This document shows positions 14,319-29,100 of a stretch of 59,056 bases of DNA, one piece after another; the stretch's first letter is position 1; every line of letters begins with the position of its first letter. Made by a program: the position numbers and the translations under genes. The notes below the pieces were generated by a model, which ran no database searches, was not told the DNA's origin, and saw only the letters and a program-made list of their open reading frames with translations. Origin of the DNA: a virus; IMG/VR virus record IMGVR_UViG_3300024255_002709, positions 1 through 59,056 of that record; one strand, written 5' to 3'.

Positions 14319-15776
14319 TTAGTTTGGATTGTATTCGCCATCTTCAAAATGTGTTATATCACCCGGTCTTATTTCTACATCTGGTATTGTTTTATCAACA
14401 TCTATGTTTTGATACCAAACAGCAAGTTCTGGAAACGTTTTACAAAAATCCTTTCCTCTTCTTTTATCATATTGTTCGTAGAATGATTTGAAATCATGAA
14501 ATTGGATTTCATCCTCTCCCTCAGTAGTAACATGACCCGTTTTAACAACTTCTATATAATCAATTAATCTTTCTATCTGTGCAATTTCTCCTTCACTAAA
14601 TAATTCGTAGAAATCACTTTCTTTCTTTTGTACCTCAAACCAATTATTTAGTTTTTTGTGTAAAAACATTTTTACATCATTGGGTAAAGCTAATGGTGAC
14701 ATAAATGCTGGCCATCTGAGTATATTAAAATCCACATTAGGTCTATTAGAACCATACTTCTTTTTTAATACAATCATATCATCTAAAAATTCAGTAATAG
14801 AAAATAAACATAATGAATTAATTGTCATCATGACTGTTAGTGAACGAAATATTTTTTGATTTACTCCTTCAAGAAAGGCAACCATATGACTTCTCCATTC
14901 AGGATAAATTAAACCATCTCTAATATATTCAGCATGAGGACCAAATGATTCGTTTGATGTATATAAATCAAACTCCTTAATTGGCAACTCATACGATGCA
15001 TCGATTAATCGTTGAATTCTTTTAAAATTACCACCAAGATTTGAATTTACAGCAAATCTAAGTTTATCAGATTTATGTCCTTTCATCTTTTCTAAGAAAC
15101 TCCAAAAGTTTGGAGATGCACATGGTTCACCACCTGTAATTCTTATTTCTTCTAATCCACCTTCAATTAAATCAGGCCACCATTTTAAAAATGCTTCTAC
15201 ATAAGGATTTTGGTCATTATATTTACCATTTGCATCTGCCCAAGAACCATTGTTTTGATATGCACCAGCTGATACTGATTTAAACTTTTGATATGGTCCA
15301 AATTTATCAATATCCTTACCCCAAGTTGTAGAGTAACCAGCATTACAATATGAACATCCAAAATTACAAGTTCTATCAAAAGAAGCTTCAATTGTTTTTG
15401 GTATAATATCAGCATCCCATGGTACATCTTTAATTGCAGCGATATCTTCTTCTTTATAAATCTTAGATTTGTAAATTCTATCTGCTATATTATCTCTACC
15501 AATATCTTCAATCTTCCAACAATAAGAACACTCAGCAGGTCGTTTACCTTCTAACATCATCTTTCTTTGTTTTTTAGAAAAATCAGTATTATGTAATTCA
15601 GATGGTCTATCTTTTAATTTATCTACATCAATTGGATGAGGTAGTGGTAAGTGACATGAGTTTTTAAAACCATGCCCTAGATGCAATGATACATTGTACC
15701 ATTTTGCTGCACAAAAACTTGGTGATATACTATTGAGATTATCATCTCTCCATTTTCTTAAATTTTCTGTTGACAT
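14319..15776 (-). CDS. Twitch-type radical SAM protein 1
   Basis: 485 aa. The radical SAM cluster motif is in RTCNFGCSYCNAGYSTTW (CxxxCxxC), which binds the [4Fe-4S] cluster that cleaves S-adenosylmethionine. ITGGEP further on is the typical GGE motif. The N-terminal third holds extra Cys/His pairs (CHLPLPHP and CSYCWKIED) that could bind a further metal. The C-terminal YDKRRGKDF...FPEL segment is shared with the second copy at 16523-17941. Such proteins recur in marine phages and SPS loci; their substrate is unknown. It lies beside a LamG-like protein and the GT7-LamG genes. Confidence 0.85.
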   Translation of the reverse strand: MSTENLRKWRDDNLNSISPSFCAAKWYNVSLHLGHGFKNSCHLPLPHPIDVDKLKDRPSELHNTDFSKKQRKMMLEGKRPAECSYCWKIEDIGRDNIADRIYKSKIYKEEDIAAIKDVPWDADIIPKTIEASFDRTCNFGCSYCNAGYSTTWGKDIDKFGPYQKFKSVSAGAYQNNGSWADANGKYNDQNPYVEAFLKWWPDLIEGGLEEIRITGGEPCASPNFWSFLEKMKGHKSDKLRFAVNSNLGGNFKRIQRLIDASYELPIKEFDLYTSNESFGPHAEYIRDGLIYPEWRSHMVAFLEGVNQKIFRSLTVMMTINSLCLFSITEFLDDMIVLKKKYGSNRPNVDFNILRWPAFMSPLALPNDVKMFLHKKLNNWFEVQKKESDFYELFSEGEIAQIERLIDYIEVVKTGHVTTEGEDEIQFHDFKSFYEQYDKRRGKDFCKTFPELAVWYQNIDVDKTIPDVEIRPGDITHFEDGEYNPN

Positions 15777-15779
15777 ATA

Positions 15780-16526
15780 TTATTTTATAAATTCTGTTGG
15801 TACTTTTTCCACAAAGTATGTATTTTTTGAATTATCATATATAATTCCTTGATTATTTACTGTATTAAAGTCATAGTTAAATATTACTTTATTATATTCA
15901 TCGATTTTGTTTAAGTTATTGATATCAGTTTTATATATTTTTTTAATTGTTTCTATATCTGTAATATCTTCTACAAAGAGTAAATTATCTATATCTACTG
16001 AACCATGGTAACGATGCTCAGGTACTTCAGTACCAGGATTACCAGTTCCTAGATACAATCCTTCTGTTCTATAATCATCTATTAGATTTTTATCGAAATC
16101 AATTTCACCTACTTTTTCAAAGTTTTTATAAATTATAAACTCATCATTTTTTCTAACTATGGTAATTACAATACCATTTGAAATTTCATCATAATTTACT
16201 CCATGAAATGGTAGGTAATGAAACTCATCATCTGCAACTTTAGTTGTTGCTTCCGTCCAAAATTCTAAAGCTAATGTATCCGCTTCATGATTATATGTTA
16301 AACCAAAGTTTTTACCAGGTTTCCCAAATATACAAAATATATTATCAGATTCTAAATCTTTATCTAATTTAAATTCAATATTAATCGAGTATTCTAATTG
16401 ATGAAACAAATTAGATATTTTTTCAGATTCACTTTTATTAAACTCAGTAACGTACTGATGGTCTTTATGTTCATTTAAATCCCATTCATATTTAATCCAA
16501 TATGGTTCTTTATAATTTATTATCAT
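15780..16526 (-). CDS. Stand-alone LamG-like (concanavalin A fold) protein
   Basis: 248 aa. It reads as a beta-rich jelly-roll: alternating hydrophobic strands, LALEFWTEATTK, GLYLGTGNPGTEVPEHRYHGSVD near 175-198, and a final segment with IFNYDFNTVNNQGIIYDNS. The last motifs recall the LamG halves of the adjacent GT7 fusions (GTG..., a short xGxI strand, and the closing NYDF/HYDC plus DxSxN). It could be a free carbohydrate-binding module. It sits between the two radical SAM genes with overlaps or a 3-base gap, so it may work with them. The family call rests on pattern similarity only. Confidence 0.55.
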   Translation of the reverse strand: MIINYKEPYWIKYEWDLNEHKDHQYVTEFNKSESEKISNLFHQLEYSINIEFKLDKDLESDNIFCIFGKPGKNFGLTYNHEADTLALEFWTEATTKVADDEFHYLPFHGVNYDEISNGIVITIVRKNDEFIIYKNFEKVGEIDFDKNLIDDYRTEGLYLGTGNPGTEVPEHRYHGSVDIDNLLFVEDITDIETIKKIYKTDINNLNKIDEYNKVIFNYDFNTVNNQGIIYDNSKNTYFVEKVPTEFIK

Positions 16527-17941
16527 TTTATATCATTTATAAATTCACTCATTTCAGGATAAGTTTCTTCACAATCCAATCCTCTTCTTTGTTTATAATC
16601 TTTAATGTAATGTTTAAATTTCTTTTTACCCAATGAGAAGTCAACATCAGATTTCGCATCTTCCAAAAACATATCCTTTATTCTTGTTATTTTTTCAATT
16701 TCTTTTAATGTGAATCCACTATCAGTTGGTTCTTGTAATTGATATGAATTTAAACTTCTATATGATGAGAAAAACTTCATATATTTTTCTAATTTTTCAA
16801 AATACGAAATATCTAAATATCCTTTTAATAATCTAAAACTTAAAAAGTCAGGATATCTTAAATAAGATGTATCTATTATTAGTGGAGAATTCCAATATCG
16901 TTTTGTATTAAAATGTTTAACTTTAAAATCATATATTTTTCTTAAAAGTTTTTCATAACTAAATGGTGAAAATATATTAAAGGTAGACATTACAACAATT
17001 GTTAATTCAGGTATCTCCGTAAGTATTTTATCTATATTATCAAATAGTTGATTAAAGTTTAATCCAAATCTAATATATTCGGCTTGGTCTCCAAATGCAT
17101 CTACTGAAGTGTATAATATAAATTCTTTTACTCGTTTCTCCTTAATTATTAATTTAGCTTTTTCTATGAACTTATCTATTAGTTTATCTTCTACACAAAG
17201 ATTACTATTTATAGAAAGTTTTAAATTCTTATTAGGAGTATCTGTTTCTATAATTTCATCCAATACCTTAAATGTATCTTTAGAAAGTAAAGGTTCTCCT
17301 CCTGTTATTCTAAATGTATCCATACTTTTATAAAGTTCTGGCCACCATTTCCAAAAAGCTTCTATGTAAGGATTGTGTTCTGATTTTTTATAGGGAATCA
17401 TATCTTCATTCTCTAATGTTTTCAATGAATTAAATCCATCTCCTGTTGAAAACTCTCCATGTTTTCTCATCTCCTCTACCCATTTAGAAGAATAAGATGG
17501 TCCACAATACCCACATTTAAAATTACAAGTATTAGAAAAAGATACCTCTACATACTTTGGTAAAAAATTATCCCTCCATTGAGAATCTTTTATTTGTTCA
17601 AAAAATGGTTTTGACCAAGATTCCTCTGATTTAAAAATTCTATCTGAGTATGAATTTGAATTATCTTCTACTTTCCAACAATAACCACATTCCTTTGGTC
17701 GTTTGTTTTCCAACATTTCTTTTCTAGCTTTCTTCTTTTGAGAACTATTATGTAATGCAGTATGGTCTTTTTGTATTTCTCTTAATGAAATTTTGTGAGG
17801 TGCAGGATGATGACAAGAGTGAGTAGTTCCATCATGTAAATGCATTGTAACTTGTGTCCATTTAGCTAAACAAAACCCACATCCAACAGAATCTAACTTC
17901 TGTTTCATTTGTTCAAAGTTGTTACCTATAACTTTACTCAT
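16523..17941 (-). CDS. Twitch-type radical SAM protein 2
   Basis: 472 aa, paralogue of 14319-15776. The cluster motif is NTCNFKCGYCGPSYSSKW, followed by RITGGEPLLS. The N-terminal FCLAKWTQVTMHLHDG and SCHHPAPHK match FCAAKWYNVSLHLGHG and SCHLPLPHP of copy 1, and ECGYCWKVED matches CSYCWKIED. The C-terminal YKQRRGLDCEETYPEM is also shared. A tandem pair split by a LamG-like gene suggests a duplicated module with different targets. The substrate cannot be read from the sequence. It overlaps the GT7-LamG gene upstream by 4 bases. Confidence 0.85.
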   Translation of the reverse strand: MSKVIGNNFEQMKQKLDSVGCGFCLAKWTQVTMHLHDGTTHSCHHPAPHKISLREIQKDHTALHNSSQKKKARKEMLENKRPKECGYCWKVEDNSNSYSDRIFKSEESWSKPFFEQIKDSQWRDNFLPKYVEVSFSNTCNFKCGYCGPSYSSKWVEEMRKHGEFSTGDGFNSLKTLENEDMIPYKKSEHNPYIEAFWKWWPELYKSMDTFRITGGEPLLSKDTFKVLDEIIETDTPNKNLKLSINSNLCVEDKLIDKFIEKAKLIIKEKRVKEFILYTSVDAFGDQAEYIRFGLNFNQLFDNIDKILTEIPELTIVVMSTFNIFSPFSYEKLLRKIYDFKVKHFNTKRYWNSPLIIDTSYLRYPDFLSFRLLKGYLDISYFEKLEKYMKFFSSYRSLNSYQLQEPTDSGFTLKEIEKITRIKDMFLEDAKSDVDFSLGKKKFKHYIKDYKQRRGLDCEETYPEMSEFINDIK

Positions 17942-19386
17942 AATTTTATGTTTATAAATTTAGCATTTGGTGTTATTTCTTCAACACTTACTAATTCATA
18001 TTTTAAGGAATTCATTCCATCTGATTTGTAATCCCATGTACCTTGTTGCATTTGATGGACAAATCTTTTTTCATTTGCAGCAGTTGTTTCACCCTTAGCC
18101 CAAACTTCCTTACCATCACTATTTTTGACCAATCCCTCATCCTTATGTGGTAAACAATACATTTTACCAGGTACTCTATGTGGTACGGTTGTGTATGGTA
18201 TTTTTACAACATCTTTTTTGAATGTACAATCATGTACAATTGCATTGTTATCATTGTTAGTTTTATCCATCATTAACCCATCTTTACAATCGTAATGTAG
18301 GACTAAACCATCATCTTCAACTTCGTTATGAATATTAGATACCTCATCCTTAGTTAACGCTCTGTTCCACATTCTCACATCTGCAATATCACCTCTAAAC
18401 CATTTTGATGGTTCTGTATCTGCAACTGATGTAGTTGTTCCAAGATAATAACTTGTATTACCATATCGTTTTAACATTCCCTCAAATGATTGTGGTGAAG
18501 GTGTTCCTGTTCCCCATCTTGCATCAGATTCCTTTCCATTCATATAAAAATGAATATCATTTCCATCAACTACTAAGGTAATCCAAGACCATCTATCTTC
18601 ATAGTTTTTCATCCATTGATAGATGTGTTCTCTTTGGTTGTTCCAAAGAGTTGCGGTATATGTTCTTGAGTTATTGTAACTAAATCCATAGTCATATCCT
18701 GGTCTACGAAGAATTGGATATTCACAAAATCTCCTATCCATATCACCAACTAACCAAATTGGAACTTTTTCCTCTTGTTGATGTGCTCTTACTAATACTG
18801 AAATAGTATGTGAACGAGATGTTAAATTTCGTAATTGTCTAGTACATGGTATTTCTGCATAAGATTTATATCCATCAAATGAAATAAAATCTTGTGGAGT
18901 TTTATCGAAATCCATATATTCATAATTAGCATATCCCTCTAAAACACATCTCCAAAACAAATCATCATCTTCCATTCCCCAATCCCAATAATCATTTGAA
19001 TAACCATTAGTTCTTTCAACTTGTTCTTTAGAAAATAAAATTGCACCACCAAAATACTCTTCATATTTTAGTTCATAGTTCATTTGTGAGATTTGAGTTG
19101 CAATATGTCTAGGTTTATCTTTTGGAAAAGAATAATCAGCACCTCCATCTTCTTCAGGAATCATATCAATATCATGATATACAACATAATCACATCCTTC
19201 TTTGAACGCCCACTCAGCAGCGATGTTTTTAGTTGCTCCTCTGTTGAACAACTTATCATCTACTTGATGACCAAAATAAATTTGATAATCAATTCCCCTA
19301 TCCTTAAGGTATTTACCAATCTTTGGTATAAATTCTTTTAGATGTGATTCTCTGTTTCTATATGGTACACAAACTCCTAACTTCAT
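17938..19386 (-). CDS. GT7 (beta-1,4-galactosyltransferase-like) enzyme fused to LamG-like domain, copy 1
   Basis: 482 aa. The N-terminal ~200 residues follow the beta4-galactosyltransferase plan: VCVPYRNRESHL, FNRGATKN (47-54), HDIDMIP (71-77, the DxD metal site), YFGGAILFS and NGYSNDYWDWGMEDDDLF (127-144), where the catalytic Asp is expected. The C-terminal part (about 225-400) is LamG-like, with IHFYMNGKE, YYLGTTTS, FRGDIADVRMWNRALTKDE and LHYDCKD. The fusion would tie sugar transfer to carbohydrate or protein binding. Two more copies follow the same architecture (19793-21247, 22046-23503). No membrane anchor is seen, unlike animal homologues. Confidence 0.83.
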   Translation of the reverse strand: MKLGVCVPYRNRESHLKEFIPKIGKYLKDRGIDYQIYFGHQVDDKLFNRGATKNIAAEWAFKEGCDYVVYHDIDMIPEEDGGADYSFPKDKPRHIATQISQMNYELKYEEYFGGAILFSKEQVERTNGYSNDYWDWGMEDDDLFWRCVLEGYANYEYMDFDKTPQDFISFDGYKSYAEIPCTRQLRNLTSRSHTISVLVRAHQQEEKVPIWLVGDMDRRFCEYPILRRPGYDYGFSYNNSRTYTATLWNNQREHIYQWMKNYEDRWSWITLVVDGNDIHFYMNGKESDARWGTGTPSPQSFEGMLKRYGNTSYYLGTTTSVADTEPSKWFRGDIADVRMWNRALTKDEVSNIHNEVEDDGLVLHYDCKDGLMMDKTNNDNNAIVHDCTFKKDVVKIPYTTVPHRVPGKMYCLPHKDEGLVKNSDGKEVWAKGETTAANEKRFVHQMQQGTWDYKSDGMNSLKYELVSVEEITPNAKFINIKL

Positions 19387-19796
19387 AGTGTATCCGCTAT
19401 TAACTTTTTAAACTTAGTTGTACTCCAACCATGGTCTCTATTTAAATAATGAACTGGTACATCTAATTCGAAACCTGTGTATGTTTTACCACGATAATCA
19501 TCTCCTAAAAATCTGATATCTGGATTTAATCTGTATATTAAATCTACCAATTCTTTTTCGTAAGTATAATACGCAATTCCATTTATAAATTTTATTGAGG
19601 TTAAAATTTCTGTTCTTTCTTGTTTAGTAAGAATTGGTTTTAGTTTCTCTGGTCTTTCTATTGATGGGTCTATGTGTAAAAGAATTATAAGTTGTTTACA
19701 ATAAGTTTTACACTCTTTAAACATCTTAATATAACCTGGATGTATTACATCGAAGTTACCGGCAATCACTCCCATATTATATTTATTATCCATCAT
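19383..19796 (-). CDS. Cytidylyltransferase/adenylyltransferase (HldE C-terminal/TagD-like)
   Basis: 137 aa. GVIAGNFDVIHPGYIKMF at the start is the nucleotidyltransferase signature, with HPGY in place of HxGH, so the second His is Tyr. RFLGDDYRGKTYTGFE and RDHGWSTTKFKKLI are the following substrate and ribose/phosphate motifs, the latter corresponding to the RTxGISTT-like signature. Size fits a single domain. It may activate a sugar phosphate or polyol phosphate and complement the stand-alone HldE-like kinase at 4522-5277. It overlaps both flanking GT7-LamG genes by 4 bases. Confidence 0.83.
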   Translation of the reverse strand: MMDNKYNMGVIAGNFDVIHPGYIKMFKECKTYCKQLIILLHIDPSIERPEKLKPILTKQERTEILTSIKFINGIAYYTYEKELVDLIYRLNPDIRFLGDDYRGKTYTGFELDVPVHYLNRDHGWSTTKFKKLIADTL

Positions 19797-21247
19797 AACT
19801 CTATTGATATTTTACTTATTATTCCGTTTTCTTCTTTTTTTACTTCTTTAAATCTAAGTGTATTGATTCCATCAATTCTAAAATCATCTATGTTAGTTCT
19901 AACTTGATTATAATATTTTAATTGATTTTTTCTTGTTTCGTTATGTACCCACTTATTTCCAATAGAAGAATTGCTTTTATGTTTTAATGACTTAAAACGA
20001 GATTCTCTACGATGTGGTTTTGGTAGAAAAGTTTTAAAGGATTCACTAGACTTATATAAATATATATTGTTTAAATAAACATCATATTTTCCACCCAAAT
20101 CGATTGATGTAGTTGATGTTGATATTTCTGGTAATATTTGTGTATGTAAAAATTCACTTGATTTAAAGTTTCCAAAATTTCTAAGTTTTGGTTTAGTTGG
20201 GTTTTGTGATATCTCAAAAACTTCATCATCATTAAGAGCAATATCATATATCTCGATACTCGATATTAATCCATAAAAGAAATCTTTATTTGATGGCTTA
20301 CCATTTCCAATACCAATAAAAATTTCATCAGATGATAATTGTAATATTTCATTATTCATTTTTTCCGTACCAACAAGTTTACCATTCATGTATAATTTTA
20401 TTGTATCTGAATTTTCATATACCATGGTTAGATGAACCCATCTCTCACCAACAACATCGGTTGAAACCGAATATGGTTTTTTATCCAAATCATATGATTG
20501 ACAGAAAAATCTTCTAAATGAATTATAAAATAAACCCGTATTGTAACCAGGTATTGATAGTATAGGAAATTCATCATATTCTTTATTTTCACTTAAAGGT
20601 ATATCTTCTGGCTTTACCATAACAGAAATAGTAAACTCATCTTCAAGTAAATGTAATTTTTTAGTAGAAAAACACTTTATAAAAGAATTCGTCCCATTAA
20701 ACTTAAATGATTCTATTTCTTTAATAGTTTCATTACCGAAAGATTCAGTATCAATTTCTAAATCTGATTCGATACATCTAATTAATAAATCATCATCTTC
20801 GAATCCCCATCCCCAATAATCATTTGAGAATCCATTAATAGTTTTGAAATCTTCTTTTGTAAACATTGTTACTCCACCGAAGTAATCAAAGAATGTAGTT
20901 TCGTAATCGTGTTCTTGTAGGTGTGTTGCTAAATGAAGTGGTTTATCTGAATAAGAATAATCCACATCTTCAGGTAACATATCGACATCATGAAATACAA
21001 AATAATCGCACCCCTTATCCAAGGCATACTTATATCCTGCATTCAGAAGTTTACCTCTGTTAAAAGGTTTATCATCTGATTGTTCAATGATGAAGATTTC
21101 GTAATCAATATCCTTAATATAATCTTTCATATGAGATAAGAACCTTTTCAGTTGTTGTTCTCTATCTCTATATGGAACTATTATACCAAGTTTATGATTT
21201 ACTCTCTTCTCCTTGAGTTTCTGTGTTCTCTTGGATTCTCTCAGCAT
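19793..21247 (-). CDS. GT7 (beta-1,4-galactosyltransferase-like) enzyme fused to LamG-like domain, copy 2
   Basis: 484 aa from ATG at 21247, which overlaps the 89-aa gene by 56 bases. The conserved domain begins only at residue ~18 (KLGIIVPYRDRE). An AAGGAG lies just before that point but no ATG, GTG or TTG follows it, so the true start is uncertain. This copy has the most canonical GT7 motifs: FNRGKLLNAGY (62-72), HDVDMLP (86-92), FGGVTMFT and INGFSNDYWGWGFEDDDL (137-154), close to the animal beta4GalT signature. The LamG-like region at about 205-360 includes IKLYMNGKLVG, EIFIGIGNG and FYGLISSIEIYDIALNDDE. A galactose or related sugar donor is inferred. Confidence 0.83.
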   Translation of the reverse strand: MLRESKRTQKLKEKRVNHKLGIIVPYRDREQQLKRFLSHMKDYIKDIDYEIFIIEQSDDKPFNRGKLLNAGYKYALDKGCDYFVFHDVDMLPEDVDYSYSDKPLHLATHLQEHDYETTFFDYFGGVTMFTKEDFKTINGFSNDYWGWGFEDDDLLIRCIESDLEIDTESFGNETIKEIESFKFNGTNSFIKCFSTKKLHLLEDEFTISVMVKPEDIPLSENKEYDEFPILSIPGYNTGLFYNSFRRFFCQSYDLDKKPYSVSTDVVGERWVHLTMVYENSDTIKLYMNGKLVGTEKMNNEILQLSSDEIFIGIGNGKPSNKDFFYGLISSIEIYDIALNDDEVFEISQNPTKPKLRNFGNFKSSEFLHTQILPEISTSTTSIDLGGKYDVYLNNIYLYKSSESFKTFLPKPHRRESRFKSLKHKSNSSIGNKWVHNETRKNQLKYYNQVRTNIDDFRIDGINTLRFKEVKKEENGIISKISIEL

Positions 21248-21461: not shown

Positions 21462-22071
21462 AATTGTAATTTAGTTTTTTATTTTCTACTAATTCTGTTA
21501 ATAATTTTTTAAACATCCATCCTTCGTGTGATTTAAAATCAATAGAGAACGATGCTTCTTCTATATAATCTTTAAGTTTTACTGGTTTCCATTTTAATTT
21601 TTCCAATTCTGATTCTAGTTTTGGAATATCCCACTTTACTTCTTCTAAGTAGTCTTTTATCTTTTTTGGCTCCCACTTTAACTTTTCAATCTTTGCTTTG
21701 AGTTCTTCTATCTTCCACTCTAATTCTTCTATTTCGTTATTTTTATCATCTAATTCAAATTCAAGTTTTTCCATTTCTGCAGTTTTTACAACTACATTTG
21801 TATTTGCTTCATCTAACCTAAAAGTTTTTTGTTTTATTTCTTCCTCGGTTTCATCTATTCTTGGTTGATTATCCCAATACCTTTCAAAGTATTCACCAAT
21901 ATGAGAATTATTATGTTTAGAAGTTTTAAGTAAAGTTTCTAAAATCATAATAATTTTTAAAAATATAGCATTATCCTTAACACCTGGTTCAATAATATCT
22001 TGTAGACTATTATCTATGTGCTCAAGGGTTCGTACTACCTTTTCGTTATGTAACAATTCTAATAAGTTCAT
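21433..22071 (-). CDS. Coiled-coil protein with internal repeat
   Basis: 212 aa. Residues ~72-175 are a long charged helix with heptad-like spacing (EEIEELEWKIEELKAKIEKL-type sequence). Within it a ~19-residue unit occurs twice: EKLKWEPKKIKDYLEEVKW at 129-147 and EKLKWKPVKLKDYIEEASF at 157-175, separated by a similar KWDIPKLESEL spacer. It has no membrane segment or signal. It could be a scaffold holding glycosyltransferases together or a trimerising virion component; both are guesses. It overlaps the flanking genes by 26 and 29 bases. Confidence 0.6.
   Translation of the reverse strand: MNLLELLHNEKVVRTLEHIDNSLQDIIEPGVKDNAIFLKIIMILETLLKTSKHNNSHIGEYFERYWDNQPRIDETEEEIKQKTFRLDEANTNVVVKTAEMEKLEFELDDKNNEIEELEWKIEELKAKIEKLKWEPKKIKDYLEEVKWDIPKLESELEKLKWKPVKLKDYIEEASFSIDFKSHEGWMFKKLLTELVENKKLNYNYGKDNENNK
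21547..21687 (-). repeat. Internal duplicated 19-residue unit in coiled-coil gene
   Basis: Two copies of a KLKWxPxKxKDYxEE coding unit (residues 129-147 and 157-175 of the 212-aa protein) lie 84 bases apart. The DNA copies are also similar, suggesting a recent slippage-type duplication. Confidence 0.6.
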
Positions 22072-23503
22072 AATCTTCTTTATCTTGTTTATCTAATATT
22101 TTATAAGTTAATGATGATAGTCCAATAGTGGTATAATCTAATTTATCTGTTAGTACCTCATGAAAAAATATATCAGCATTTTCTTCAATATCAGGATTAT
22201 ATTTATAATATTTTTTTATTATCTCAGTATCATCCTCATGTACTAATGATTTATATTCTCCTTGCAATCTTATTGGTAAATATATTGGAGTTGTTACATC
22301 TAAAGTAATTTCCTCTACATCAAATGGTCCTTCCAATTTTAAGTGATTTAAATTTTTACCCTTATCTAATAATAATCTATTTTTATAAAAAGTTTTAAAG
22401 TCATATATACTACAAATATTAAACCCAAATTTATTTTTCAAATTATTAAATGAACTTTCTCCATCGTAAAATAAAGCAGATACTATTTCTTCATTAATTT
22501 TTGTATTTGAAGTTAATATTGATGAGATTTTAATATCACTTTGTGTATCTGAAATTTTAACTGTATGTTTTGTATAATCAAATAAATCGAAATTTTCTTT
22601 TAGTTTAAGAGTTTCTAATTTATTATTGAGGTACATAAAGATACCATTGTTATTTTTACCAAATATAACATGATTCCATTTTTCTTTTTTATAATCATGA
22701 GATACCTCATAGTGTATTTCATCTTTATCCCATATCTGACCTAGTACATGCTTTCCATGTGATAAGAATACACCAGTATCACACCCTTCAAATGAAAATA
22801 AGTTTTTTACTTCTTCTGTATTCTTTGAATCTTTGAACCAAAATGAAATAAAAAAATCTCCATTTATTAATTCATTTGTCATATGATTTATATTTCCATA
22901 AAATCTACTTTCAGCACCAAGTGATATTGTATTTATTTTATGGTTTCTTTTATCTGTACCTATTTCTACATTTTCTATCCTATATGGTAACACATCAGTA
23001 ATATCATATCTTTCATATGTTTGATTTATATCATAAAACTTTTCTAAATACGCTCCACTTCTTTCTAATCTATAAAGTAAGTCTAAATCATGAAAACCAT
23101 AACCCCAATACTCATTTGAGTATCCGTTTGCATTTTCAAAATCTTCTCTACTGATAACATTAACTCCACCAAAATATTGTGGATATGGCATCTTGTTATC
23201 ATGTGCTTCAACATTAGTTGCTAAGTGAGTTGGTGATTCGGGATAAGTATAATCACACTCATCATTCATTGGTAACATATCTATATCATGAAAAGCAAAG
23301 TAAGTGTATTCTTTACCAACTTCTTTACTAACAACATTACATAATTTACCATAATTGAAAGGTCTATTATCTGTTTGTTCTGCAATAAAAATAGTGTAAT
23401 CGATTCCCTTATCTTTAAGAAACTCTTGCATATGAGGTATGAACACATCTAAGTGGTCTTGCCTATCTCTATAAGGAACAATAATTGCTAACTTATCTAT
23501 CAT
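22046..23503 (-). CDS. GT7-like protein fused to LamG-like domain, copy 3 (degenerate active site)
   Basis: 485 aa, same architecture as the other two. AIIVPYRDRQDHL, HDIDMLP (72-78) and YFGGVNVIS are kept. FNRG is FNYG (49-52), and the WGWGxEDDD motif reads WGYGFHDLDL (133-142). The residue matching the catalytic Asp of beta4GalT remains, but the preceding Glu is His and the following Asp is Leu. It may accept a different sugar or be a binding-only copy. The LamG-like part (about 205-360) has GIFMYLNNKLETLK and a CDTGVFLSHGKH strand. It overlaps the coiled-coil gene by 26 bases and the next upstream gene by 4. Confidence 0.78.
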   Translation of the reverse strand: MIDKLAIIVPYRDRQDHLDVFIPHMQEFLKDKGIDYTIFIAEQTDNRPFNYGKLCNVVSKEVGKEYTYFAFHDIDMLPMNDECDYTYPESPTHLATNVEAHDNKMPYPQYFGGVNVISREDFENANGYSNEYWGYGFHDLDLLYRLERSGAYLEKFYDINQTYERYDITDVLPYRIENVEIGTDKRNHKINTISLGAESRFYGNINHMTNELINGDFFISFWFKDSKNTEEVKNLFSFEGCDTGVFLSHGKHVLGQIWDKDEIHYEVSHDYKKEKWNHVIFGKNNNGIFMYLNNKLETLKLKENFDLFDYTKHTVKISDTQSDIKISSILTSNTKINEEIVSALFYDGESSFNNLKNKFGFNICSIYDFKTFYKNRLLLDKGKNLNHLKLEGPFDVEEITLDVTTPIYLPIRLQGEYKSLVHEDDTEIIKKYYKYNPDIEENADIFFHEVLTDKLDYTTIGLSSLTYKILDKQDKEDYELIRIVT

Positions 23504-26174: not shown

Positions 26175-29100
26175 TTATCCACAATATAGATATCCGTACA
26201 CGCCTTCCATTTTACCATTAGAATCCCACGAAGATGATTCCATAGATTTTGCTACTGTATAAGAACATTGTGATTGTCTTTCTTCGTAAATTGGAGTAGA
26301 ATCTCCATTAAATCCTGTTACTACCCATTCAGATGGTTGTTTCATTAAATAACCAGGAGTATCTGAAGAACAAAGTAAATCACCAGGTACAACATCACCA
26401 CCTTGATTACACATTTTAAATCCTGTTAAACTAAAGTAAGAACCGGATACATTCCATTCAATACTATCCCCAAGAGATGCTACTCTCCATATTTCTTTTG
26501 AACCAGTTTCATTATTTGGTAAATAATTACCAAATGAATCTAAATATGATGCGGATACCATTTCTTCTGATGCTGTATAAGGAGTGTATCCATCCTCTAC
26601 GGAACCAGTTATTAGGTTTGTTATTTTTAATTCATATTTTTCCCAAAGAATACCAACCACCGATGTATCTTTTGCTGATGATACTTTTATAAGTTCATTA
26701 TTTGAATCTACTTTTACTAAATCACCTCTTGAAATATTTTCCGATATTCTCTTTTTATATGCGTGTCCTAATGTTACAACTTGGTCTAATTTTGCAGACA
26801 TATTATGTGAAAGTATTCCATCTGAAATATAATTATGCACTACATCTAATTCATAATTCCAAACCTCAACTTCTTCATCAAAAGTTTCTATACTTTTTAT
26901 TTTATCAATAATTAATCTTCCATCATCATAAACATACAACTCACCACCAACTCCGAGTTTATCAACAGAAATTTCACAATTAGGATAATCAGGATGATAT
27001 AGTAAATGTGAATTAGAACATTTTAACTTTTTACCTAATTCTGTTTCTATCTTACTCCATCCTTGTACTTTATTAGTAATAATTTCATCAATAGATGACC
27101 ATCCCCATTCTTTGGTTTCAAAGTTAAATATTTTGATTACATCATCTTCTTTTGTATCTTCTACATTTATCTCACCTCTTTTAGAAATTATTTTAGTACC
27201 AGGTAATACACAAGAAACGGAATCTCTAACATCAATCCTGGTAAAGTTACTACTAATAGTAGTAAATCGACTCCCGATTCCAGTTGATGAAGTACCGATA
27301 CCAATATCGTCCCTTATTCTAAGAGTACCCTCTGAAGAAAATGAAAATGCACTTCCAAAAGTAGAGCGGCTAGTTCCACTACCAATTTTTGCAGCTGTCC
27401 TTATAACCAGTCCATCATCATCAACATCAAATATATCACCAAATGGTCGAATATTACTACCACCCTTTAATTTAGATTTTGTTGTATCTTGTACAAAGTT
27501 ACCAGATGTATCAATATAGAAACCAGCTGCAGATATAAAACCACTACTTCCAATTGTTATACTACCTGCTGATGTAAAGTCTCCACTACTTCCTTTATCA
27601 CCACTATATAACGAATCTGAATCAATCTTCCATGCACCCACAGTACCAGCAGTTGCTGTAACTCTATTTACATCTAATGTAGAAGAACTATGGTCCCAAG
27701 TTAATGCACCATTAGTACCTCCAAGATAAAAATCTCCATTATTAGCCATGTAACTTTTAAACTCACTACCATCGTGGTATCCCATGTAGGCAGATGTTAA
27801 ATTTAACCCTGCTGCTGCAGTATTAGTTGCTAATGTAAACCCATTACCACCAAATGAATAACTTGATGGGTTTGGGTCTCCCGCTGACCAAGCAGCTGAA
27901 TTGTTACTAATGGTTTGGTTGGCAGCATCGGCAGCATCTTTTGCAGCTGATGCGGAAAGAGCAGCATTTCCTGATGCCGTAGTTGCAAAACTTTCAGCAT
28001 TTTGTTGAGCGGCAGAAGCGGAAGCGGCGGCTCCTGCTCCAAAATCTTCTAAAGTAGTTGAACCTGCTGCAATTGTCATAGTACCAGTCATTGATAAGTC
28101 ACCATTTGAATCAAATGATAATTTATCTCCAAGTGAAAATTGCCCATCACTATCAATATAAAGTTGAGTGTTTGAGTTTCCAAAATCTCCTGCTCCTGTT
28201 CCTGTTCCTGTTACTACTTTGAATGCAGTACTTGTTACAGATACAGGTCCAATTGTTGCTGAGTTCATTACAGCATCTCCACTCATGTTTACACTAAATG
28301 GAGCATCACTAAATGTAGCATCACCTAATTGAATACCACTAGTACCTGCTTTGAATATATCATCACCAGTACCAATAGTTACTGAACCACCAAATGTACC
28401 TGTTGCTGCTGATATATCACCACTAAATGAAGCATTACCATCGGATTCGATTTTAAATTGTTGAGCATGAATCGAACCAGAATCTAAATTAATTGCCATA
28501 CCTGCTGCAGCATAACCAGTTGTATCTGAAATTCCATTAGTTGTACCAGAAGCTGAATCATTCCAATTTGTAGATATAATCCTACCAGTTGAAATATTAT
28601 CTCCATGGATTGCCGTTGTACCAGTAGTTCCAAATGATAATGCATTTCCACTACCATTTGAAACCGAATCATCTGCGGTAAACGTTACTAAACCAGTAAA
28701 TCCAATTGCTTGTTGAGCATCACCAAAGGTTGGTGTACCTGTTCCACCTCCAGCAGTTGTTTCAACAACAGAATAGGTTGAGTACCAATATTTATTATCA
28801 TTACCACCTGAATATGTTGGTGCACCCAATCCCCAATCAGCGGTTAAACTAGTAAATGTACCATTAGAAAAAGTATATGAAGTTGCACTTGGTGTAGCTG
28901 GTTGAGTTGAACCAGTTTCTTGATAATGAATCATTCCAGTTGCAGTTCTCTTACCATCAGCACCAGTTATTGATTCACCTTGAACTGCAACTCCTACATT
29001 GACTGTAATTGTTTTACCTGTAAGTGTAGTTCCTTCTGAATTGGTGTAACTTAGTGTTACAACGGAAGTTGTACCATCACCATTACTTGGTTTAGTTGGT

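Follow-up and report, generated by a model that had tools for sequence, protein, structure and literature searches.

The window, that is, the whole 59,056-nucleotide stretch of IMG/VR record IMGVR_UViG_3300024255_002709 that was analysed, comes from a myovirus-like genome (baseplate wedge, primase and SbcC-like genes) and carries a giant gene for a presumed tail fibre, in which a Hint domain lies between a shaft and a C-terminal tip (Table 1). In profile searches the 2,491-residue product gave no Pfam or PHROG match outside the Hint, and its fibre role is predicted from collagen-like relatives (L005 and L032) and from an annotated T7-like tail fibre whose end is homologous to the tip. The shaft is 58% identical in protein sequence to that of L001 (59% in the C-terminal region before the Hint), and the weaker relatives of this C-terminal region at 27 further loci carry other tips at their ends, among them several with S74 or Hint. 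The fibre has eight cysteines, seven of which lie in the Hint (three) or the tip (four), at 26178-27212 on the minus strand; several of the tip cysteines are conserved and could form disulphides or bind metal. Opposite-strand ORFs across the Hint (27112-27519 on the plus strand, and others) had no supporting evidence and were set aside. Downstream of the fibre gene there is an unusual cluster of sugar-handling genes: two of them (17941-19386 and 19796-21247, both minus) encode fusions of a LamG/ConA-like lectin domain with a family-7 (beta-1,4-galactosyltransferase-like) glycosyltransferase, 22049-23503 holds a third GT7-like gene, and two Radical SAM proteins (14322-15776 and 16526-17941, both minus) are encoded in the same cluster.

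Table 1. Features of the presumed fibre gene and its Hint domain in the window
Feature	Position	Strand	Remarks
Giant presumed tail-fibre gene, 2,491 aa	26175..33650	-	ORF open throughout; fibre role predicted
Shaft C-terminal region directly before the Hint, with a variable linker at its end	27213..27680	-	Relatives in L001 and 27 further loci
Hint domain, residues 2147-2283, 137 aa	26802..27212	-	Pfam, NCBIfam and PDB matches; family alignment
Cys1 (Cys2147), N-terminal nucleophile	27210..27212	-	Invariant in 9/9 distinct homologues; DNA homology begins here
Block B S-N-S-H, residues 2212-2215	27006..27017	-	S, N and H invariant in 9/9
Block F H-N-Y, residues 2272-2274	26829..26837	-	Invariant in 9/9
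Terminal His2282-Asn2283, C-terminal cleavage motif	26802..26807	-	Kept in 9/9; Asn2283 = 26804-26802
+1 residue Met2284, no nucleophile	26799..26801	-	Variable across the family
+4 residue Lys2287, possible alternative nucleophile	26790..26792	-	Lys in 9/9
C-terminal tip domain, 208 aa	26178..26801	-	Joined to the Hint in two phage types; Hint-less homologues known

The initial annotation had placed a 137-residue Hint domain from Cys2147 to Asn2283, with Met as the next residue and a C-terminal part of 208 residues, and codons, motifs and profile matches all agree with this. In outline the segment reads C1-VLPGTKI ... SNSH ... VWNYELDVVHNYISDGILSHN, then Met, then the C-terminal part. The cut-out domain matches Pfam Intein_splicing with an E-value of 3.5e-7 and 30.6 bits, under the curated cutoff of 35.8, and NCBIfam intein_Nterm and intein_Cterm with 1e-4 and 0.034, both just under cutoff; for the latter two models the best family members reach 2.9e-8 and 5e-4. 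In the PDB it matches the BIL domain 2lwy (E 5e-6) and the Spl DnaX mini-intein 7cfv, and the latter is the best match of the family profile (E 2e-6); since 2lwy scores from 5e-6 to 7e-5 and 7cfv equally well, the PDB scores do not split inteins from BILs. Sequence profiles fit the domain to intein models better than to PT-HINT. A profile made only from homologues of a different phage type gives the window domain 198 bits, against a maximum of 16 bits for 2,000 shuffles. AlphaFold models of Hint plus tip and of the tip (pLDDT 44 and 45, respectively) were too poor for active-site geometry and were left out of the fold searches. An internal translation start at Met2284 was ruled out, as relatives have T, A or G at this position, and no Shine-Dalgarno sequence was seen.

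Scans of IMG/VR found the Hint together with the tip in long fibre-like ORFs of L001/L003 (98%), L002, L004-L007 and L005. In L016, L017, L018 and L034, which have a different gene context and phage type, both sit in a short protein, its length about 495 aa in L017 and L018. The family thus set consists of nine distinct Hints, window included, in two lineages, and in the alignment all nine keep C1, S-N-x-H, H-N-Y and His-Asn. The residues outside the domain are far less constant: position -1 is S, F, A or T with no N-flank residue kept, and position +1 is M, M, V, T, T, A, G, A and A across the family, Thr being confined to L004-L007. Control phage inteins, ordinary inteins taken from RNR, TerL, portal and gyrase matches in phage records, have T, S, C, T and T at +1 (all five with a readable His-Asn junction). 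The alignment marks the missing +1 nucleophile as characteristic of the family and not as an accident. The earlier view that standard splicing is disfavoured thus gains from the variability of +1 throughout the family (M, V, T, A, G), albeit not for the Thr+1 clade, which is compatible with ordinary splicing. In a scan of bacterial genomes, matches in Alistipes were due to chance (M64-type peptidase, octamer HLIYHPDY).

Sequence divergence indicates that the domain is maintained. For most within-lineage pairs the Hint has a dN of 0.03-0.11, a dS of 0.23-1.8 and a dN/dS of approximately 0.03-0.31, obtained by a simple method (NG86) with some pairs saturated and the ratio stated where dS is measurable; in comparisons across the two lineages, dS has reached saturation or nearly so. 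By these estimates, the catalytic residues of the Hint are under purifying selection. Between the window and L001, protein identity is 99% in the Hint and 98% in the tip, and DNA identity, which is 56-73% before the Cys1 codon, reaches 100% there. This border recurs in comparisons of the window with L002 and with L005. Because DNA identity jumps at the Cys1 codon, Hint and tip are, on this sequence record, one cassette that moves between phages, and their joint travel suggests that fibres are cut or rejoined after synthesis. Between the window and L002, dS is lowest in the Hint (0.28), higher in the tip (0.65) and highest in the shaft (1.06), and the low Hint dS in the window lineage fits recent exchange centred on the Hint. 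For the phiCbK TerL a comparable remark has been made, namely that the intein could be a source of DNA for recombination (PMC3556154).

The tip forms a family of its own that ends fibres both with and without a Hint. Hint-less homologues occur in L032, L035, L037-L040 and the T7-like tail fibre of Vibrio phage 1.204.O, the last of which matches the tip profile with E 1.4e-17 (against that single protein); in L032 a tip 53-55% identical ends a collagen-like fibre with a different shaft. As the tip is found at fibre ends of both kinds, the Hint is an optional part directly before it. About a third of the tip columns are invariant. Pfam has no name for the tip, and sequence profiles gave no S74 match in 16 tip homologues, though the two may be distantly related; the position of the tip suggests a role in receptor binding. 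Among the loci scanned, none proved to be a Hint-less allele that was otherwise identical in shaft and tip, and looking for Hint-less forms of the short protein gave only Hint-bearing relatives. In the record behind L032, another open frame of 677 aa has a weak Hint-like match (G004:C1:14695-14838, minus) and is possibly an intein in another gene.

We consider it probable that the Hint is an autoprocessing domain resembling A-type BILs, located at a flexible junction of shaft and tip, and that it acts by autocleavage, possibly with partial ligation. BIL domains have no +1 nucleophile and in most cases cut at both of their ends (PMC7664689; PMC7765530), and A-type BILs end in His-Asn and are located in hypervariable, non-conserved proteins (PMC7765530). 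The window family has the features of this class, namely a Hint fold with Cys1 and block-B Thr/Ser-x-x-His, a terminal His-Asn and no conserved +1 nucleophile, and it also resembles 2lwy and its relatives in size and in its location in variable modular proteins. Furthermore, the block-F Asp of three compared phage inteins is Asn in the window family (W-N-Y), as it is in 2lwy. It differs from A-type BILs in being part of a presumed phage fibre and not of a bacterial protein, in always standing beside one tip family and in its low sequence identity to them. Autocleavage is favoured because the lost +1 nucleophile is the hallmark of BIL domains, whose usual reaction is this two-ended cleavage. 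In the proposed mechanism, Cys1 would make the N-terminal thioester and His-Asn would cleave the C-terminal bond via Asn cyclisation. As +1 is not a conserved nucleophile, cleavage of the precursor would be expected at either border of the Hint or at both, and some direct ligation of shaft to tip may occur without a +1 side chain. Both border reactions would be selected, because Cys1 and the terminal His-Asn are both retained, whereas N-cleavage alone (Hog, B-type BIL) or C-cleavage alone would not require both; the Hedgehog (Hog) Hint, which performs N-cleavage only, has no C-terminal His-Asn, unlike the window family, which keeps it throughout. The Hint would at the same time provide a fixed, self-contained border for the exchange of shafts and tips. 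We infer activity and dominant product from sequence, and a released tip that serves as chaperone or decoy would be a biological guess.

The same residues could be read as those of an ordinary mini-intein, which would be excised nearly completely and join shaft to tip, through Thr+1 in the clade that has it and through direct attack by an amine in the others, leaving the mature fibre uncut. Both splice-junction residues are kept in every family member, the family profile matches a mini-intein best among PDB entries, L004-L007 have Thr at +1, and BIL domains are reported to splice without a +1 nucleophile (by the title of Aranko 2013, cited in PMC7664689). Phage mini-inteins of TerL, RNR, portal and gyrase share the Hint fold and blocks A, B, F and G with the window Hint, but they reside in conserved enzymes or the portal and have C, S or T at +1, whereas the window Hint lies in a variable fibre linker and most of its family has M, V, A or G at +1. 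Class 1 inteins carry Cys, Ser or Thr at +1, where the window has Met, and occupy a conserved host site with intein-free alleles, where the Hints of the window family are flanked by variable linkers. In addition, there is no homing endonuclease within the 137-residue domain. Taken together, these points make ordinary splicing unlikely, albeit the foremost of the alternatives.

Less probable still is an inactive Hint, retained only as a structural spacer or, at the DNA level, as a conserved stretch for recombination between fibres. The sharp Cys1 border of Hint-plus-tip exchange is in line with it, as is the dS of the window lineage, which in the Hint falls below that of tip or shaft and suggests frequent exchange. 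Against it, the whole catalytic set, beyond the fold, persists in members so diverged that their synonymous sites are saturated.

Isopeptide splicing, in which Lys+4 would attack the Cys1 thioester, so that the shaft end becomes joined to the side chain of a tip lysine and the Hint leaves by Asn cyclisation, is the most doubtful of the alternatives: although 9/9 members have Lys+4, its spacing from Asn constant despite variation at +1 to +3 and in the distance to the tip, there are only two lineages, one invariant residue is weak evidence where about a third of the tip columns are invariant, and the other fibre Hints described below, both Ser1 and jumbo-phage, lack Lys+4. The precedent is BIL2 of Tetrahymena BUBL1 (6y75, 6tmm), a PDB match of the window family (E 4e-5) that likewise has no standard +1 nucleophile and forms an isopeptide bond to lysine (PMC8616854). 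BUBL1 BIL2 differs in its eukaryotic polyubiquitin-like locus and in that its acceptor lysine, shown experimentally, lies in a downstream ubiquitin-like domain. It is correspondingly improbable that environmental phage fibres carry a shaft-tip isopeptide bond via Lys+4, which would give a covalently branched fibre and a protein-level point of tip exchange.

Hint domains are linked to other fibres as well. Relatives of the shaft in L071/L074, L078 and L083/L084 contain another Hint that begins with Ser1 and has Pro, Pro or Ala at +1. These Hints sit between two conserved beta-rich regions, followed in L071/L074 and L078 by an S74 chaperone; the flanking blocks co-occur only in Hint-bearing fibres, and no empty site was found there. 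The Ser1 profile gives the window Hint 56 bits, and the window-family profile gives L071 43, L083 38 and L078 32 bits, against 31 bits for the best phage intein. L069/L070 end in a further Hint type. Hints also end tail proteins of jumbo phages (Erwinia Y3, Alexandra and Yoloswag, Dickeya AD1, Yersinia fHe-Yen9-02) and of phage NCTB, with 3-10 residues after them and T, V, A or K at +1; some of these proteins are annotated as 'putative phage tail protein, contains intein domain'. These terminal Hints share with the window Hint a collagen-like or fibre-like host protein and the terminal HN, but stand at the very C-terminus and are closer to PT-HINT. A TxxH-type block-B motif occurs in the Ser1 Hints and in most of the jumbo-phage Hints. 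In phage NCTB (L092, 5960-13219) there are three separate Hint-bearing tail-region proteins, one of which is a stand-alone Hint-like protein of 153 aa without an obvious Cys1.

A single family for all fibre Hints was ruled out, as the window Hint scores no higher with the jumbo-phage profile than shuffled sequences do. Because the jumbo-phage Hints are not detectably closer to the window Hint than expected by chance, fibre-linked Hints probably arose more than once, to judge from the profiles. A cleavable tip on a long fibre had been considered unusual; the Ser1 shafts and the jumbo-phage tail proteins indicate that fibre-linked Hints are not unique to the window family, and tip release cannot be their general role because the terminal jumbo-phage Hints have no tip. 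The peptidase S74 chaperones of phage fibres are comparable in that autoproteolysis takes place between the fibre and a C-terminal domain. They differ in fold and chemistry, and the window tip has no S74 match, yet the Ser1-Hint fibres also carry S74. In the open-access literature searched, we found no paper analysing a Hint in a tail fibre.

The usual description of Hint domains in phages is that of selfish inteins residing in genes for replication and packaging. The domain described here could yield a compact cleaving or ligating domain for biotechnology. For the phages, our results suggest that presumed fibres contain, as a conserved functional element, a Hint that lacks the splicing nucleophile and sits at the junction where tips are swapped. 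If it is active, long phage fibres would be processed after synthesis by a BIL-like reaction, a maturation route other than that of the S74 chaperones.
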